From: Pontixanthobacter sp. CEM42
GTDB lineage: Bacteria > Pseudomonadota > Alphaproteobacteria > Sphingomonadales > Sphingomonadaceae
Assembly: GCF_017812015.1 (NCBI RefSeq)
Contig: NZ_JADQTN010000001.1
Span: 1,590,501-1,654,500, forward strand
Length of the DNA: 64,000 nucleotides
Direction of reading: 5' to 3'
Part shown: positions 7,334 to 64,000 of the stretch, in pieces
How the letters are laid out: every line of letters starts with the position of its first letter
Numbering within the stretch: position 1 is the first letter of the stretch
Notes under the pieces: model-generated
What the model saw: the letters and a program-made list of their open reading frames with translations, nothing else
Database searches by the model: none
Told to the model about the DNA's origin: nothing
Translations under genes and position numbers: made by a program

Positions 7334-9649
7334 ATGCCGCCGCTGCCTGAATCGCCATTCCATCAGCTCTTAGCGAACCGAATCTCTGCGCCCGGCACGT
7401 TGGTGGCGGTTGCCGCTGTGCTATCCGTCGGCACCGCGAACGCGGCCTATGCACAGGACGCCGCGTCGATGGATCCGTCTGTAATGCAGCCGGTCGAACA
7501 AACCGAAACGCCTGTTGATTCGCCGCCCCACCAGACCGAGGCAGGGCGAGCAATCGATTTTGAAGCCAATGAACTGGCCTACGATTCCGAGAATGACATC
7601 GTCACTGCATCAGGCAATGTCATCCTGCGCAGCGAAGACCGATCGGTCCGCGCGCAGCAGGTGACGTGGAACCGCAAGACCGGACAAATCGTTGCTTCGG
7701 GCGATGTCCGGTTCGTCGATGCAGAGGGCAACCAGCTGTATACCAGCCGGATCGAGCTGACCGACGAATTCGAAGCGGGCGCAATGGAAGAGTTGCTGCT
7801 TGCATTGCGCGCGGGAGGCCGCTTGGCGGCTCGCGGCGGTGCGCGGCAGGATGATGGCGCCATCATTCTTACCGATGCAGCGTACAGCGCCTGCGCCGTG
7901 GCTGATCCCGAAAATTGCGATAAAGACCCGAGTTGGCGCATTACCGCAGACCGCGTCACCTATTCGCCTGACGACCAACAAATCCGTTTCAAAGGTGCCT
8001 ATTTGGAGCTGTTCGGCGCGCGCTTGCTCCCGCTACCGGGCTTGGCCATTCGCGCTGACGGGGCCGCAGTATCCGGCGTCACCGTTCCCAATTTGCGCGT
8101 GTCGGAATCGAATGGAGTCGAAGTACAAGCGGGCTATTACTGGCGCTTGGCCGACAATAAGGATTTGACCGTCGAGGCATCGGTATTTTCGGAAGCGCCT
8201 CCGATGGTGTCGGCACAATGGCGGCATCTGACCGACAAAGGTGCGTATCAGATCACCGGCTATGGCACGAGCAGCCGCAGGATCGGTTTAGGGGGCGCGA
8301 CGCCGACTGCCCAAAACGATCTGCGCGGCTATATATTCGCCAACGGGAAGTTCCAGTTTACACCGAAATGGAGCGTTACCGGATCGGTCAGGCTCGCAAC
8401 CGACCGCACCTTCCTGCGCCGCTATGATATCAGCCGCGAGGACCGGCTTCGTTCGACAGTCAATGTCGAGCGGATTTCCGACACATCCTATTTCTCGCTC
8501 GCTGGCTGGGCGACACAAACGCTGCGCGTGAATGCGGAGCAGGGGCAAGTACCCTTTGCCTTACCTGTGCTGGACTATCGCAAGAGGTTTACCGATCCGT
8601 CCGGACTTGGCGGCACGTTGGAACTGCAAGCGAACACGCTCGCCATTACCCGTAACGAGGGGCAAAATACGCAACGCGCCTTTGCAGGTGCACGGTGGGA
8701 TTTGCGCAAGCTAACCAATCTTGGCCAAGTTGTAACGCTGACAGGGTTGGTGCGCGGCGATGTCTATCACAGCGATAATAACGGTCTGACAGCGACCGCC
8801 ATCTATCGCGGCAATCCTGGCTGGCAAACGCGCGGTGTCGCCTTGGGTGCAATAGACATGCAATGGCCATTTGTCGGTGAAGCGCTCGGCGGAACGCAGG
8901 TCTTTACGCCGCGCGTTCAAATCGTGGCTAGCCCGCCGATCCGCAATTTGGCCGTGCCCAACGAAGATGCCCGCGCAATCGACTTGGAGGACTCCAACTT
9001 GTTCGCGCTTAACCGCTTCCCCGGCTATGACCGGGTCGAGGACGGTACACGCATCACCTATGGCTTCGATTGGGAGCTGCAGCGGCCAAGCTGGCGCGCC
9101 AAGGCGACTTTCGGTCAATCTTACCGCCTCGACAAAGATCAGGACATTCTGGTTGATGGCACCGGCCTGAGCGAACGCGTTTCCGATTTCGTCGGTCGTA
9201 CCGAAGTCCGCTATCGCAACTTCCTGCAACTCACTCACCGCTACCGGCTCGACAAAGACAATTTCGCAGTGCGTCGGAACGAGTTCGACGCGACCGTTGG
9301 TACCAAGCGCACTTATGCCGAGATCGGTTATCTGCGGCTCAACCGCGATATCGCCGCCGGCATTGAAGATTTGCAGGACCGTGAGGAATTGCGGGTCGCC
9401 ACGCGCGTAGCATTTGCGAAATATTGGTCTGTGTTCGGATCGGGCGTGCTCAACCTGACCGATTTCGAGGAAGACCCGACCTTGACTTCGGATGGCTTCG
9501 AGCCGGTCCGCACGCGCCTCGGCGTCGCTTATCAGGATGATTGCCTAGAAATGGGTCTCACTTGGCGGCGCGATTATGTGACGTCGGGCGATGCGCAGCG
9601 CGGCAACACCTTCCAATTCTATTTCGCACTGCGCAACCTAGGCTTCTGA
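7334..9649 (+). CDS. lptD: LPS-assembly outer-membrane protein LptD
   Basis: LptD is the outer-membrane barrel that inserts lipopolysaccharide into the outer leaflet together with LptE. The 771-residue product has a signal peptide ending near AYA-QD at 40, an OstA/LptA-like jelly-roll domain (about 60-170, with IDFEANELAYDSENDIVTA) and a C-terminal beta-barrel that ends ...FYFALRNLGF with the terminal Phe used by the BAM complex. The ATG at 7334 gives a normal signal peptide, whereas the longer frame from 7280 does not. The following surA, pdxA and rsmA reproduce the classic enterobacterial order. Confidence 0.93.
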   Translation: MPPLPESPFHQLLANRISAPGTLVAVAAVLSVGTANAAYAQDAASMDPSVMQPVEQTETPVDSPPHQTEAGRAIDFEANELAYDSENDIVTASGNVILRSEDRSVRAQQVTWNRKTGQIVASGDVRFVDAEGNQLYTSRIELTDEFEAGAMEELLLALRAGGRLAARGGARQDDGAIILTDAAYSACAVADPENCDKDPSWRITADRVTYSPDDQQIRFKGAYLELFGARLLPLPGLAIRADGAAVSGVTVPNLRVSESNGVEVQAGYYWRLADNKDLTVEASVFSEAPPMVSAQWRHLTDKGAYQITGYGTSSRRIGLGGATPTAQNDLRGYIFANGKFQFTPKWSVTGSVRLATDRTFLRRYDISREDRLRSTVNVERISDTSYFSLAGWATQTLRVNAEQGQVPFALPVLDYRKRFTDPSGLGGTLELQANTLAITRNEGQNTQRAFAGARWDLRKLTNLGQVVTLTGLVRGDVYHSDNNGLTATAIYRGNPGWQTRGVALGAIDMQWPFVGEALGGTQVFTPRVQIVASPPIRNLAVPNEDARAIDLEDSNLFALNRFPGYDRVEDGTRITYGFDWELQRPSWRAKATFGQSYRLDKDQDILVDGTGLSERVSDFVGRTEVRYRNFLQLTHRYRLDKDNFAVRRNEFDATVGTKRTYAEIGYLRLNRDIAAGIEDLQDREELRVATRVAFAKYWSVFGSGVLNLTDFEEDPTLTSDGFEPVRTRLGVAYQDDCLEMGLTWRRDYVTSGDAQRGNTFQFYFALRNLGF

Positions 9650-9832
9650 GGCGACTATAATGTCATCTGGCAGAGCTGCACCGATCTTTGGCCCCATATT
9701 ATTGGCAATGCGCCGCAAACCCGCTATCCGGCGCAGCAATACCGTAGGTTACTCATGTTTGGTTAAGCCAGATTGTGGTCCAACCGGCGGAACCCAAGGC
9801 GCGAAGGACGGCGCTGCAAACGGATTATACAT

Positions 9833-59734: not shown

Positions 59735-59828
59735 TGCGGGCAATCTCCTTGCGTACTCCCCGTCCGCGCATTTAGGGAGAGTTTGTCTATCCCGCAATGC
59801 ATGCCATCAAAGGCCCAACCACGCGACC

Positions 59829-60284
59829 ATGCCGATTCTGCGAAAACTCCAGACTTTCAGCGGCTTGCCCGGTGCAGAGGCTTGGGCATTTTTCGAGGCG
59901 ACAGTTTTGCTAGCTTACGCACGTTTGCTCGTAAATTTGGTGCCGCTTTCGCGCTGGCGCAAACAGATCGAAGTCTCGAGGAGCGACACTTCAGAAGTTT
60001 CTCCACTCACCAAACAGCAACGCCAAACTTCGCGGATGATAACGCGAACCATCAAGCGGGCTGGCCGCAATTTGCCGGTCAAATTCGTCTGTCTGCCACA
60101 AGCATTTGCAGCGCGGTGGATGCTTTCACGCAGGGGCATTCCGACCGAGTTGTTCCTTGGCACCCAACTGGCCGCCGAGGAAGATCGCGAATTTCACGCC
60201 TGGCTCAAAGCGGGCGATATTATGATCACCGGCCATTGCGATGAAGAGGCGTATGCCGTGTTTGGCTCGCAGCGACGCGCTTAG
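59829..60284 (+). CDS. Lasso-peptide-type B2 cysteine protease (transglutaminase-like)
   Basis: The 151-residue protein matches the B2 leader-peptidase domain of lasso biosynthesis: KFVCLPQAFAARWMLSRRGI with the nucleophile Cys88, then GTQLAAEED and FHAWLKAGD with His123 and Asp130. An N-terminal helical part (1-75) precedes it. In lasso systems B2 removes the leader peptide with help from the PqqD-like B1 protein. No B1-like gene is seen in this window. The ATG at 59829 gives the expected length. It shares its last four bases with the convergent nucleotidyltransferase gene. Confidence 0.88.
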   Translation: MPILRKLQTFSGLPGAEAWAFFEATVLLAYARLLVNLVPLSRWRKQIEVSRSDTSEVSPLTKQQRQTSRMITRTIKRAGRNLPVKFVCLPQAFAARWMLSRRGIPTELFLGTQLAAEEDREFHAWLKAGDIMITGHCDEEAYAVFGSQRRA

Positions 60285-61477
60285 GGTTTCGCAGCGACCA
60301 AACGTTTCAAGGCACGCCCCATGCCGAGAATCGGCGACAGCACGCCAAGAACCCAAAACCGCCCTGGCTTTACAGAAATCGTTGCAAGATCGCGCGGACG
60401 GGCCAGCTCGCGCAGCAAAGCATGGCGGCGATAGCCACCACCACTTTTCAGCAGCACAGAATGACGGAACCGGTCACGGTAATGTGCCCAGTCTTTGAGG
60501 CTATGCGGCCGCGACGGCATATCCTCAAACATCATCCCGAGTTCCAAATCAATCAAATCGCTGACATCATGCTGCATCAAATCTGCAAACGCAGCTGGGA
60601 TAGGCGTGCCAAGGACCCGTTCCGCCAAAGCCAGACTTACTGCACCGATCCGCTGAAGATCGTCGCTAGCGAAAATCTCTGCCGCCTCGCCAGCCTCCTG
60701 ATCTGAAAGGCCCCGCACCACGTGATCAACATCTGCCAACCATTTCAGCCGCACCCAACCCGACTTCGCCCCATGCACACAGATATAGACGCAATGCATT
60801 GCCGCAGGGAGCATAGGGATCGTTTGCCCGCCGATTGTCGTGCCTACGACGCTTTGTGACCATAGCTGATCAATCCAGGGCATTAGTGAGGGGTTCGGAA
60901 CCATCCGCCAGTGGAGATCAAGCTGCATCCCATCGCTTTTACGGATGAAAGTGAAAGCGTTGTGCAAAGCCATGAATGTCTCGCGGCTTTGCTCGGTAAG
61001 ATCGAAATCAGGATAGAAAAGCTCAAAGCCATGCGCCGCGACGATCTGTTCTGCCTCAGCGTAGCGATCCGGCGCCACAAGCAGATCAACGTCGATCATT
61101 TGCCTCTGCGACGGGGCAGCGTAATACTCTGCCGCAATGCCGACCCCTTTAAGCGATGCACAAGCAATACCCTGCTTCGAAAACGCCTCCATCAACTCAC
61201 TCGCAAGCTTGACAGCGCGCATATAGTATTCCGCGTTTTCACTGGTCTTCCCAGAGAAGTGCCGCACTAAGTCCCCGGGCGGATTAATGGCCGAGAATTG
61301 CTGTAGTCCCGCATAGACAAGCGCGCCAACGCGGTGACGCTCAACCAGTGCCGCAAACCGTTCCCAGTCAAAGTCGTCCGTAGAGCTCAATATTTCAGTC
61401 AGGAACGGCGACGCATCGGGCGATTCTGCAATTAGCAGCGCCAGCAACTTCTGCTCGATGTCCAGACGGTCGTTCAA
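60281..61477 (-). CDS. Uncharacterised nucleotidyltransferase family protein (PF14907-like)
   Basis: The 398-residue protein has the nucleotidyltransferase motif QMIDVDLLV with Asp129 and Asp131, preceded by SLKGVGIAAEYYA, and a helical rest with LDLHWRMVPNP and VRLKWLADVDHVV. Proteins of this group recur in RiPP and capsule clusters. The TTG at 61477 is preceded by AGGGAGCAAAG, a good ribosome site; the ATG at 61528 has none and would overlap the ABC gene's promoter. It points back towards the B2 gene, away from the ABC exporter. Confidence 0.82.
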   Translation of the reverse strand: MNDRLDIEQKLLALLIAESPDASPFLTEILSSTDDFDWERFAALVERHRVGALVYAGLQQFSAINPPGDLVRHFSGKTSENAEYYMRAVKLASELMEAFSKQGIACASLKGVGIAAEYYAAPSQRQMIDVDLLVAPDRYAEAEQIVAAHGFELFYPDFDLTEQSRETFMALHNAFTFIRKSDGMQLDLHWRMVPNPSLMPWIDQLWSQSVVGTTIGGQTIPMLPAAMHCVYICVHGAKSGWVRLKWLADVDHVVRGLSDQEAGEAAEIFASDDLQRIGAVSLALAERVLGTPIPAAFADLMQHDVSDLIDLELGMMFEDMPSRPHSLKDWAHYRDRFRHSVLLKSGGGYRRHALLRELARPRDLATISVKPGRFWVLGVLSPILGMGRALKRLVAAKP

Positions 61478-61541
61478 CTTTGCTCCCTCGTGTGATGTTT
61501 GCTTGTTGCCTTTGACACCATCTGGCAAGACTCGTTTCGCA

Positions 61542-63257
61542 ATGGGGGCCTTTCGATCTTATTTTGCTGATGTCAGGCGCGACGCGGGCGGTGATCTTGG
61601 CGTGGCTGCGGCGTTGGTGGGAACAGGCGCCGTGCTGGAGGGTATCGGCATCGTTGCGATCCTTCCGTTCGCCGCGCTGATTACCGGAAACGCCGATACG
61701 CAGGCTGCGCGTTCTATCCTCGAATTCATGAGCGATTTCGGCATCTCGACCGAACTTGGGCGAGCGATAGCGCTATCCTGCGGCTTCCTGTTGCTGCTCG
61801 CGCTTCGCGGACTGGTCGTTTGGAAACGCGACACGAAGCTATTTCACATGGGCCTTGGCTATGTCGATCGCTGGCGCAGCAAGCTGTTTCGCGCGATTGC
61901 CGATGCGCGGTGGGGCGTGGTGAGCAATCTGCGCCGGACCGATATCGAGCATTCGATTACCAGTGATGTGATGCGGCTCTCCTCGGGAACCGATCGGATG
62001 CTAAAAGGGGGTGCGGCGATTGCTCTCGCGGGCGTGCAACTGGCAATCATTGCATTGCTAGCCCCAGTGCTCTTGCTGATGGTCTTCGGCTTGATGTTGA
62101 TCGCTGCCGCAGTGACGATACCCCTGCTCCGAAAAGCTGATCGCTTAGGTCAGCGGCTAACCAAGTCGGGACGCAAGATACACAGCGTGCTGGGCGACTT
62201 TCTCATCAGCCAGAAACTGGCGCGACTGAACAATGCCGAAAACGAGTTCTTTGATCGCTTTGACGGCTCGGTGCGCGATGTTCGCTCCCATCAGTCGGAG
62301 TTTTTCGCGTCGCAAACTGCGGCAAGAGTAGGGTTCCAATTTGCAGCGGGCTGTGTGGTCGTTGCCGCGCTGCTGGTGGGTTTCTTCGCGCTCCAAACAC
62401 CGTTGTCGATCTTGGCAGTGACGCTACTAGTGTTGGCCCGTTTGGTCGGCCCCGTGCAGATGATCGCGCAAACAGGGCAAGCGATTGCCAACACTCTTCC
62501 GGCCTATTCATCTCTGCAAAACACCTTGGCTGAACTTCAGGCCAATGCGGAGCCGTCCATCAATCTTGACGACATCGAACCGAAGACCGGTCCGGCCGCG
62601 CTCACGCTTTCAGCTATCTCGTTCGCATATTCCGAGAATAGTTCACCAGTCCTGCAAGGGATCAATTTGTCCGTCGCTCCGGGCGAAATCGTGGCGATTG
62701 CAGGCGTATCGGGAAACGGAAAAACTACTCTACTCGATATCGTCAGCGGACTGCACAAATGCGCCGAGGGAACTGTCGCGGTTGATGGCAAGCAGCTCAT
62801 TGAACCTTCTGATTTCCGTAATTGGCGCTCCCAATCGGCCTACCTCCCGCAAGATCCATTTCTGTTCGACAGCAGTTTGCGCGAGAACCTCACTTGGTCT
62901 GCACGGGAAGTCAGCGATGACGCTTTATGGACGGCGCTCGAAACCGCCGAAGCAGACCAGTTCGTCCGCAAAATGCCTGATGGTTTGGGTAGCCGTGCAG
63001 GTGAACGAGGGCAAAACCTATCGGGCGGCCAACGCCAGCGAATATGCATCGCGCGAGCACTCCTTCGAAAGCCGCGATTGTTGATTCTAGACGAGGCGAC
63101 AAATGCCCTCGATGCACAGCTAGAGAAAGATATCCTGCACCGACTCATTGCTATGCGCGACCAATTTTCGATAATCTTGGTCACACACCGGCCCGATACG
63201 CAGCGTCTGGCTGATCGCATTGTAACACTCTCTGGCGGGACGATTGTAAGCCGATGA
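61542..63257 (+). CDS. ABC transporter, fused permease and ATPase (peptide exporter type)
   Basis: The 571-residue half-transporter has an N-terminal six-helix domain (about 20-310) and a nucleotide-binding domain with Walker A GVSGNGKTTLLD, signature LSGGQRQRICIARAL and Walker B LLILDEATNALD. It fits the McjD/MsbA group that exports peptides or lipids. The ATG at 61542 starts the usual short cytoplasmic leader. Its stop overlaps the sulfotransferase start (ATGA), so the two are one operon. Confidence 0.9.
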   Translation: MGAFRSYFADVRRDAGGDLGVAAALVGTGAVLEGIGIVAILPFAALITGNADTQAARSILEFMSDFGISTELGRAIALSCGFLLLLALRGLVVWKRDTKLFHMGLGYVDRWRSKLFRAIADARWGVVSNLRRTDIEHSITSDVMRLSSGTDRMLKGGAAIALAGVQLAIIALLAPVLLLMVFGLMLIAAAVTIPLLRKADRLGQRLTKSGRKIHSVLGDFLISQKLARLNNAENEFFDRFDGSVRDVRSHQSEFFASQTAARVGFQFAAGCVVVAALLVGFFALQTPLSILAVTLLVLARLVGPVQMIAQTGQAIANTLPAYSSLQNTLAELQANAEPSINLDDIEPKTGPAALTLSAISFAYSENSSPVLQGINLSVAPGEIVAIAGVSGNGKTTLLDIVSGLHKCAEGTVAVDGKQLIEPSDFRNWRSQSAYLPQDPFLFDSSLRENLTWSAREVSDDALWTALETAEADQFVRKMPDGLGSRAGERGQNLSGGQRQRICIARALLRKPRLLILDEATNALDAQLEKDILHRLIAMRDQFSIILVTHRPDTQRLADRIVTLSGGTIVSR

Positions 63258-64000
63258 GCAGCGAACTGATTGAACAGCGCCGCGCTTCCATCAAGCGACA
63301 TCTATTCCTGCTGTGTCCCAACAACAGCGGCTCGACCTATCTGTCTCGCGCACTTGCGACATCGCAATCTGTGTGGAGCCTGGAGCGCGAAGGGCAGCAC
63401 ACGCTAGGTTTTGCAGGACCGCATACAGGCGCGTCACCCTGGCCGCTGATCTGGGCCGCGGAAGAGAAGTCACTCACACATTTCCGCAATTCGCGTGATT
63501 ATGATTGGGAACGGACCAAGAAAGCCTGGTATTTCCATGCAACCGCAGCTCGCGATGATGCCCCGGTTTTCCATACTAAGTCTCCCCCGTTTCTACTGAT
63601 CGCAGACCAATTGGCCGCGAATTTCGAGAACCCGTCTTTCTTGTTCATGGTCCGCAATCCATATGCCGCGCTTGAAGGGATTCTAAGGCGACGTAAGCCA
63701 GTCGACGACGGGGACCTTCAACTTAACATGCCCAGGATTGCGGCGCGGCATCTAATTACGTGTTTCAAATACCAGCGCGACAATATCGCGCGTTATGCTG
63801 ACGATTCTTTCGCCTTTTCCTATGAGGCCTTGTGCAGCGATCCTGCCGAGATCGCACGCGGAATATCGGAGCTTGCTCCCGAACTGAACGATCTTCACCT
63901 ATCGCAAAGGCTCGCTGTAAAGGGCACTTATGACGAGACACTGCGCAACATGAACGATGACCAGATTGCCCGACTGACCGACGCGCAAATCGCGATGGCA
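63254..64000 (+). CDS. Sulfotransferase-like protein, 3' end beyond the window
   Basis: The first 249 residues are visible from an ATG at 63254 with no stop before 64000. A PAPS-type P-loop CPNNSGSTYLSRAL at about 21-34 and the 3'-phosphate region FLFMVRNPYAALEGILRRR place it with sulfotransferases. Position between the exporter and unseen downstream genes suggests it decorates the same product, although this is inference. The usual length would be about 300-400 residues. Confidence 0.8.
   Translation, partial: MSSELIEQRRASIKRHLFLLCPNNSGSTYLSRALATSQSVWSLEREGQHTLGFAGPHTGASPWPLIWAAEEKSLTHFRNSRDYDWERTKKAWYFHATAARDDAPVFHTKSPPFLLIADQLAANFENPSFLFMVRNPYAALEGILRRRKPVDDGDLQLNMPRIAARHLITCFKYQRDNIARYADDSFAFSYEALCSDPAEIARGISELAPELNDLHLSQRLAVKGTYDETLRNMNDDQIARLTDAQIAMA

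Follow-up and report, generated by a model that had tools for sequence, protein, structure and literature searches.

A lasso-peptide gene cluster with two sulfotransferases and an HprK-like kinase in Pontixanthobacter sp. CEM42, and its probable sulfated and phosphorylated product

Gene content of the locus

The window, meaning the whole stretch of 64,000 nucleotides from Pontixanthobacter sp. CEM42 analysed here (G000:C1:1590501-1654500, within a 3.08-Mb genome), ended on its right in genes that are, with near certainty, the start of a complete lasso-peptide gene cluster. The cluster was followed in a rightward extension, L002 (G000:C1:1649000-1668999), where the window position is the L002 position + 58499. 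Its product is probably a knotted peptide whose tail bears both sulfate and phosphate. The genes and features were, in order:

59829-60284 (L002 1330-1785), + strand: B2 leader peptidase, 151 amino acids, Cys88/His123/Asp130 (NCBIfam, Pfam)
60281-61528 (L002 1782-3029), - strand: PF14907 nucleotidyltransferase, start codon uncertain (Pfam)
61542-63257 (L002 3043-4758), + strand: ATP-binding cassette (ABC) exporter, ABC_membrane + ABC_tran, likely for product export
63254 onward, cut at 64000 (L002 4755-5567), + strand: ST1, a Sulfotransfer_3 sulfotransferase, 270 amino acids in the genome
L002 5620-6216, outside the window, + strand: AspOH, an Asp/Asn-hydroxylase-type (aspartyl-hydroxylase-type) oxygenase
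L002 6209-7114, outside the window, + strand: HprK-like kinase
L002 7111-7986, outside the window, + strand: ST2, the second sulfotransferase
L002 8013-8309, outside the window, + strand: PqqD-like B1
L002 8443-8574, outside the window, + strand: 43-codon precursor (open reading frame scan)
L002 8598-8660: strong, terminator-like hairpin between the precursor and cyclase genes
L002 8697-10352, outside the window, + strand: Asn-synthase-like cyclase
L002 10354-11238, outside the window, + strand: GT8 glycosyltransferase
L002 11243-14455, just beyond the window, - strand: permease/FG-GAP/UnbV protein

The initial annotation, which had seen the window only, described a B2 protein with intact Cys88, His123 and Asp130 and a four-base overlap between the exporter and sulfotransferase genes (61542-63257 against 63254 onward), and both details were confirmed. 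Overlaps of 4-8 bases joined ABC/ST1, AspOH/HprK and HprK/ST2, among others. The lasso parts reported as missing, together with the HprK-like kinase, all lay within 5 kb past the window end (B1, precursor, Asn-synthase-like cyclase and kinase); a downstream region without cyclase, B1 and precursor, the outcome that would have told against a lasso cluster, was tested for and did not occur. The sulfotransferase of the annotation was present, but it is not single: the cluster encodes two of them, and it further includes genes for a hydroxylase and a GT8 glycosyltransferase.

Precursor and core lasso enzymes

The B2 peptidase scored 67.9 bits with the NCBIfam model lasso_biosyn_B2 (cut-off 33) and 66.4 bits with Pfam Transglut_core3 (cut-off 26). 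B1 matched PF05402 at 72.3 bits (cut-off 23.4), and the cyclase matched PF00733 at 107 bits (cut-off 21), its best NCBIfam model being the lasso cyclase. When open reading frames (ORFs) of 20-110 codons with a ribosome-site-like motif upstream were scanned over L002 900-11300, one lasso-like precursor was recovered. It sits outside the window, where the initial annotation had expected it if present at all (beyond 64000), and the scan bore out that the gaps 59735-59828 and 61478-61541 hold no precursor.

The precursor (MSNAKDNRTEWKKPQVTAITPVRRTRGGPGNIRPVENAFYATS, with GAGGGG upstream) has 43 codons and the C-terminal part ...RTRGGPGNIRPVENAFYATS. Its leader carries the motif WKKPQV (aromatic-xxPx-aliphatic), and a Thr stands near the cleavage site (RTR/GG); Thr at -2 is highly conserved among lasso precursors (PMC12670498; PMC10368454). 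The W, P, T, F, Y and last S were invariant in 12 aligned precursors, this one included and the fourth copy of genome G179 left out. The core contains a single Ser, at the C terminus, a single Tyr and no Asp. The gap between the precursor and cyclase genes held a hairpin followed by T's (-24.1 kcal/mol, z = -4.5, equalled by 0 of 200 shuffles); this resembles a terminator or attenuator and would allow excess precursor production.

Sulfotransferases and kinase

ST1 matched Sulfotransfer_3 at 34.2 bits (cut-off 27), and the adjacent PF14907 nucleotidyltransferase reached 171 bits (cut-off 31.2; both Pfam). The AlphaFold2 model of ST1 had a predicted confidence (pLDDT) of 92.6. When this model was compared with solved structures by Foldseek (TM score about 0.5), a cyanobacterial polyketide-synthase sulfotransferase domain ranked first and human TPST2 next; TPST1, a mycobacterial STF protein and the CurM domain followed at lower ranks, and weaker matches included heparan 3-O-sulfotransferases. 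Its sequence profile found CurM at 1.4e-6 and TPST2 at 1.1e-3. The predicted fold of ST1 is that of a sulfotransferase using 3'-phosphoadenosine-5'-phosphosulfate (PAPS), and the model lies close to the human tyrosylprotein sulfotransferases. The ST2 profile matched the glycopeptide sulfotransferases Teg14, Teg12 and StaL at 4e-29 to 1e-23, enzymes whose substrates are tyrosine-derived phenols of glycopeptides.

Some ST1 clusters encoded a third sulfotransferase, of the Sulfotransfer_2 type (L019:13826-14590, L051:8378-9043, L067:8461-9096). In Sphingopyxis sp. PET50 (L057:6742-9177), an 811-residue protein seems to join a lasso cyclase to a Sulfotransfer_2 domain at its C-terminal end (residues 609-806).

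The Pfam scan of the kinase gave no HprK match. A profile of 24 kinase sequences found Hpr(Ser) kinase at 4.4e-7, and the model (pLDDT 95.1) had ATP-dependent phosphoenolpyruvate carboxykinase as its top match, with HprK/P appearing from rank 33; the label HprK-like rests on these two results. The P-loop residues G123 and G128-K-S-T were invariant in the 24 sequences. The HprK and ST2 genes adjoined on the same strand in 34 of the 37 loci with both (a few genomes being counted twice, as G and as named records), which suggests from gene neighbourhood that the two enzymes act together. Kinases of lasso clusters, those of Proteobacteria included, phosphorylate the C-terminal Ser (PMC8498205), and by its gene content (HprK-like kinase, C-terminal Ser) the cluster would belong to the phosphorylated, paeninodin-like lasso subgroup. 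The lasso kinase of Bradymonas, however, phosphorylates Ser3 (PMC10368454), and four precursors without a C-terminal Ser (L084, L097, L107, L106) had a TGGS motif; numbered with Thr as -2, its Ser occupies core position 2. HprK-like kinases thus need not target the C terminus in every cluster.

Distribution of ST1 clusters

In a family-level sample of 199 genomes, the B2 family was found in 83 and the cyclase (E <= 1e-40) in 8, showing lasso genes to be common in the sample and near relatives of this cyclase to be uncommon. A search of genome contigs placed ST1 relatives at 22 loci, mostly of Alpha- and Gammaproteobacteria, including Pontixanthobacter, Parerythrobacter, Sphingorhabdus, Sphingopyxis, Citromicrobium, Amylibacter, Anianabacter and a Rhodobacteraceae bacterium; further loci came from Alteromonas, Methylophaga, BD1-7, Pseudomonadales, one metagenome-assembled genome labelled Anaerolineales, and others. 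Genes at the loci were counted with profiles built from seed members of the same loci, so that seed matches hold by construction, and some of the 22 loci end at contig ends. Cyclase or B1 was present at 20 of the 22 (exceptions L052 and L058), HprK at 20, GT8 at 19, ST2 at 18, AspOH at 17 and B2 at 12; at the locus level only, the nucleotidyltransferase was found at 10, the ABC exporter at 7 and the permease/FG-GAP gene at 6. Among 40 further loci from B2-positive genomes, 19 had the cyclase, 16 HprK and 6 ST2 (one weak, L106), and the ST1 profile matched at none.

At L052 (P. rizhaonensis) ST1 stood without a cluster, and the cluster of the same organism is apparently L024 (G120), which lacked an ST1 match; ST1 seems to have been displaced there from a cluster whose precursor keeps the Tyr. 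At a comparable chromosomal site in the same genus (G037, L044:9509-13021), just B2, the nucleotidyltransferase and the ABC gene were found, followed directly by a UbiH-like flank, and the rest of that cluster seems to have been lost, or never gained. Phage tail-collar-like proteins (PF07484 in one tested) were seen beside HprK/sulfotransferase lasso clusters, paired in 4 of 5 loci (L030:3192-4431, L031:2915-4154, L033:11380-12704, L041:5760-7061, L051:3905-4438). These secreted proteins were considered as long precursors and rejected, their C termini having no core.

Conservation of the tail Tyr and Ser

Precursors were chosen by BLAST with Tyr-bearing queries, which biases toward the result, or by a leader-motif pattern neutral to Tyr and Ser, and Tyr was scored over the nine C-terminal residues. 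Where the locus includes ST1 (20 loci), Tyr was present in 21/21 and a C-terminal Ser in 21/21 precursors. Both residues were also present in the one precursor with ST1 elsewhere in the genome (1/1 each) and in all stand-alone precursors of ST1 genomes (6/6 each). When HprK and ST2 occurred without ST1 (9 loci), C-terminal Ser was kept in 10/10 precursors and Tyr in 4/10. With HprK only and no sulfotransferase, Tyr was found in 0/8 and C-terminal Ser in 4/8. The single precursor with HprK and a weak sulfotransferase match had neither (0/1 each), and the one without HprK had Ser (1/1) and no Tyr (0/1). A lasso-like candidate at L088 (HprK 41 bits, C-terminal Ala, Tyr absent from the last nine) was excluded from the counts; including it, the HprK-only counts become Tyr 0/9 and Ser 4/9. 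The fourth stand-alone precursor of G179 (ending FYNPS) was left out too. No precursor was found at ST1 loci L049, L054 and L066 or within L016/L047, nor at L040, L042, L087, L089, L090 and L100. Fisher tests (4.7e-8, 1.9e-4) were rejected as proof because the cyclase tree shows few independent events. The association of Tyr with ST1 is strong conservation within the ST1 group, with about two independent events, and not independent statistical proof.

Distant precursors and the permease/FG-GAP gene

Stand-alone precursors far from the only cyclase matched were found in three genomes: G179 (L017 about 8225-9709), G044 (L020 8457-9106) and G015 (L022 8482-8667). G179 had no precursor between B1 and the cyclase and an uninterrupted run of four precursor genes on the same contig, at a distance of about 1.2 Mb; G044 had one at the cluster and two elsewhere, and G015 one and one. 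G179 was assigned to P. luteolus from DNA in common with L047 (82% of 60-mers in their partly overlapping loci). The placing of these precursor genes suggests that cluster enzymes may serve distant precursors. An S9 peptidase beside the stand-alone precursors (G179, G015) was tried as a lasso isopeptidase and rejected (67-70 bits, cut-off 400). It looks like a housekeeping enzyme, since a homologue (at least 67% identity) occurred in 8 of the 9 genomes searched, G179 among them and also G037, which yielded no precursor.

Besides FG-GAP repeats, the permease fusion has an ASPIC/UnbV domain and a marginal match to ArsP_1 (35.2 against 32.3 bits). Homologues (E <= 1e-60) were found in 14 of the 199 genomes, and B2 was present in 14/14 (base rate 83/199). 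In 11 of the 14 carriers one fetched stretch of no more than 20 kb contained both the gene and a lasso cyclase. Of the exceptions, G023 (L041) and G089 (L025, L040) had HprK/sulfotransferase lasso clusters elsewhere, and G037 had the remnant L044. The gene was also kept in clusters without an ABC match at the locus (L046, L048, L050, L021). Only 6 of the 22 ST1 loci carry it, so ST1 clusters do not generally include this gene. From its neighbourhood we propose a role in export or self-protection. The Bradymonas cluster is likewise bordered by an FG-GAP protein, presumed uninvolved (PMC10368454), and literature searches for lasso peptides with FG-GAP proteins returned nothing beyond that paper.

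Proposed pathway and competing explanations

We infer every chemical step, their order and their sites from the gene content and its conservation, the precursor, the Tyr and Ser invariant in the precursors found, and the predicted folds of ST1 and the kinase. B1, acting as the RRE, would bind the leader through WKKPQV. While the precursor is still linear, the HprK-like kinase would phosphorylate the C-terminal Ser, ST1 would move sulfate from PAPS onto the sole core Tyr, and ST2 and the AspOH-type oxygenase would add a second sulfate and a hydroxyl. B2 would then remove the leader after ...RTR (or ...RTRG), and the cyclase would close the ring between the exposed N-terminal Gly and the Glu. 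Sugar would be added by the PF14907 enzyme and GT8, possibly onto the phosphate, before export by the ABC protein, perhaps aided by the permease/FG-GAP fusion. We give this general scheme, a lasso peptide with a modified, probably polyanionic tail, a probability of roughly 0.68; the individual sites are less sure. A sulfated product is likely if the cluster is expressed, and the best reading of its tail is an O-sulfated Tyr with a phosphorylated C-terminal Ser; Tyr as the sulfation site and ST1 as its enzyme are favoured only slightly over their alternatives. With a kinase in the cluster, the 80-Da shift put forward earlier as a test is ambiguous on its own, since sulfate (+79.957) and phosphate (+79.966) lie 9.5 mDa apart.

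Several observations weigh against the scheme, which is built on comparative genomics. Specific models scored under their cut-offs for B1 (lasso PqqD NCBIfam model, 69.5 against 80), the cyclase (lasso cyclase NCBIfam model, 250 against 525) and the kinase (NCBIfam HprK_rel_A, 17 against 200), and the top fold match of ST1 is a polyketide-synthase domain and not TPST. Across its 39 rows, the cyclase tree requires the ST1 label to change just 2 times and the Tyr label 4 times, leaving only 1-2 independent pairs. The ring may also be unusual: with the canonical Thr(-2), the Glu falls on core position 10, outside the stated range of 7-9 for Asp/Glu (PMC9266682). Should the core begin at the second Gly, the Glu would be at position 9 and Thr at -3. 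When the first Asp/Glu from core position 7 on was counted in the 25 of 28 ST1-genome precursors with a Thr-x-Gly/Ala/Ser pattern, it stood under Thr(-2) numbering at position 8 or 9 in 17/25, at 10 in 5/25 and at 11 or 12 in 3/25; with the core begun one residue later, 22/25 fell at 7-9, but with Thr at -3. Cleavage after ...RTR or ...RTRG may both fit; the corresponding 17-residue and 16-residue cores have calculated macrolactam masses, without any tail modification, of 1730.838 and 1673.816 Da.

GT8 and AspOH co-occur with ST1 (19/22 and 17/22 ST1 loci), so the Tyr could be their target, and the product could be a phospho- or glyco-lasso of the paeninodin/pseudomycoidin type, sulfated on a sugar added by GT8 or PF14907 or on an AspOH-made hydroxyl instead of on Tyr. 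PsmN, an annotated nucleotidyltransferase, does add hexose to the phosphorylated Ser of pseudomycoidin (PMC9266682), and the heparan 3-O-sulfotransferases among the weaker ST1 matches point the same way. We consider this explanation unlikely, as the Tyr is invariant in all 21 precursors found in ST1 clusters, L053 combines ST1 and Tyr without a GT8 match in the fetched locus, and the AspOH match was absent at four ST1 loci with Tyr precursors (L051, L058, L064, L065; L064 is a short contig). ST2 may instead be the Tyr enzyme, with ST1 acting elsewhere, given its glycopeptide-sulfotransferase matches and the tail Tyr in four of the ten ST2-only precursors. This, too, we regard as improbable: the other six have no tail Tyr (L030, L031, L033, L041 twice, L082), and ST2 needs another target there.

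A quite different function has been attached to these genes. In Table 2 of PMC10040529, clusters 1738-1748 are apparently the same gene set, tied to halotolerance; the cyclase-like ORF is discussed there as an asparagine synthetase and the ABC ORF is compared with betaine transporters. The reading put forward is a stress or osmolyte system of halotolerant Pontixanthobacter (asparagine/glutamate synthesis, betaine uptake): in six strains, the ORF clusters that accompany salt tolerance include B2, the nucleotidyltransferase, ABC, two sulfotransferases, Asp hydroxylase, PqqD, asparagine synthase and a glycosyltransferase (PMC10040529). However, shared ancestry and function are not separable with six strains, and the same gene set, judged by gene content only, occurs in other genera, e.g., Sphingopyxis and Sphingorhabdus. 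Lasso biosynthesis is defined by the combination of B1, B2, precursor and cyclase, and the osmolyte function is very improbable.

A broader extension of the sulfated and phosphorylated lasso reading is that these clusters form a widespread proteobacterial "sulfo-phospho-lasso" class, threaded, with a Tyr O-sulfate three residues from a C-terminal phospho-Ser (with or without sugar), here possibly with a ten-residue ring (usual 7-9), fed by distant precursors and with a dedicated permease/FG-GAP/UnbV protein for export or self-protection. As a whole we hold this only tentatively and think it rather doubtful.

Significance and comparison with known systems

If the sulfated reading is true, the cluster offers a new class of modification enzyme for lasso engineering and a bacterial source of peptide sulfotransferases, and the published halotolerance reading of these genes (PMC10040529) would be corrected. 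Built-in comparisons (clusters with and without ST1, with and without Tyr) make the site assignments directly testable. Several species of Erythrobacter, in the old sense of the genus, are predicted to carry lasso clusters (PMC9723273), and finding one in this group is therefore no novelty. For a sulfated and phosphorylated lasso tail no characterised example was found: literature searches, limited to open-licence papers, yielded no paper whose title or abstract concerned a sulfated lasso peptide, and "sulfo" and "sulfat" are absent from the main text of a 2022 review claiming to compile all unique lasso-peptide modifications (PMC9266682). A putative sulfotransferase gene is present in some Firmicute lasso clusters (Zhu et al. 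2016c as cited in PMC8498205); it is described there just as flanking, and the likeness to our cluster is by that description only.

One close likeness is to the paeninodin/syanodin-type clusters (PadeK, SyanK), which have A, B1, B2, C, an exporter, an HprK-like kinase and a precursor with C-terminal Ser (PMC8498205; PMC9266682). Our cluster adds two sulfotransferases, AspOH, GT8 and an invariant Tyr, and no sulfation is reported in these accounts for the paeninodin/syanodin type. Pseudomycoidin (PsmK, PsmN) resembles it in pairing a kinase with an annotated nucleotidyltransferase, PF14907 being likened to PsmN by annotation; it differs in its Firmicute origin, and no sulfotransferase or AspOH is named for it in the same two sources (PMC8498205; PMC9266682). 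In canucin A a 2-oxoglutarate oxygenase, CanE, acts on the linear lasso precursor aided by B1, as proposed here for AspOH, but CanE hydroxylates a C-terminal Asp (PMC9266682). The core described here has no Asp.

Outside the lasso peptides, RaxX/RaxST is an example of a sulfatyrotide, a Tyr-sulfated ribosomally synthesized and post-translationally modified peptide (RiPP). To our knowledge it has neither a macrolactam nor B and C enzymes. Sulfatyrotides are recognized as the class of Tyr-sulfated RiPPs (PMC9484694).

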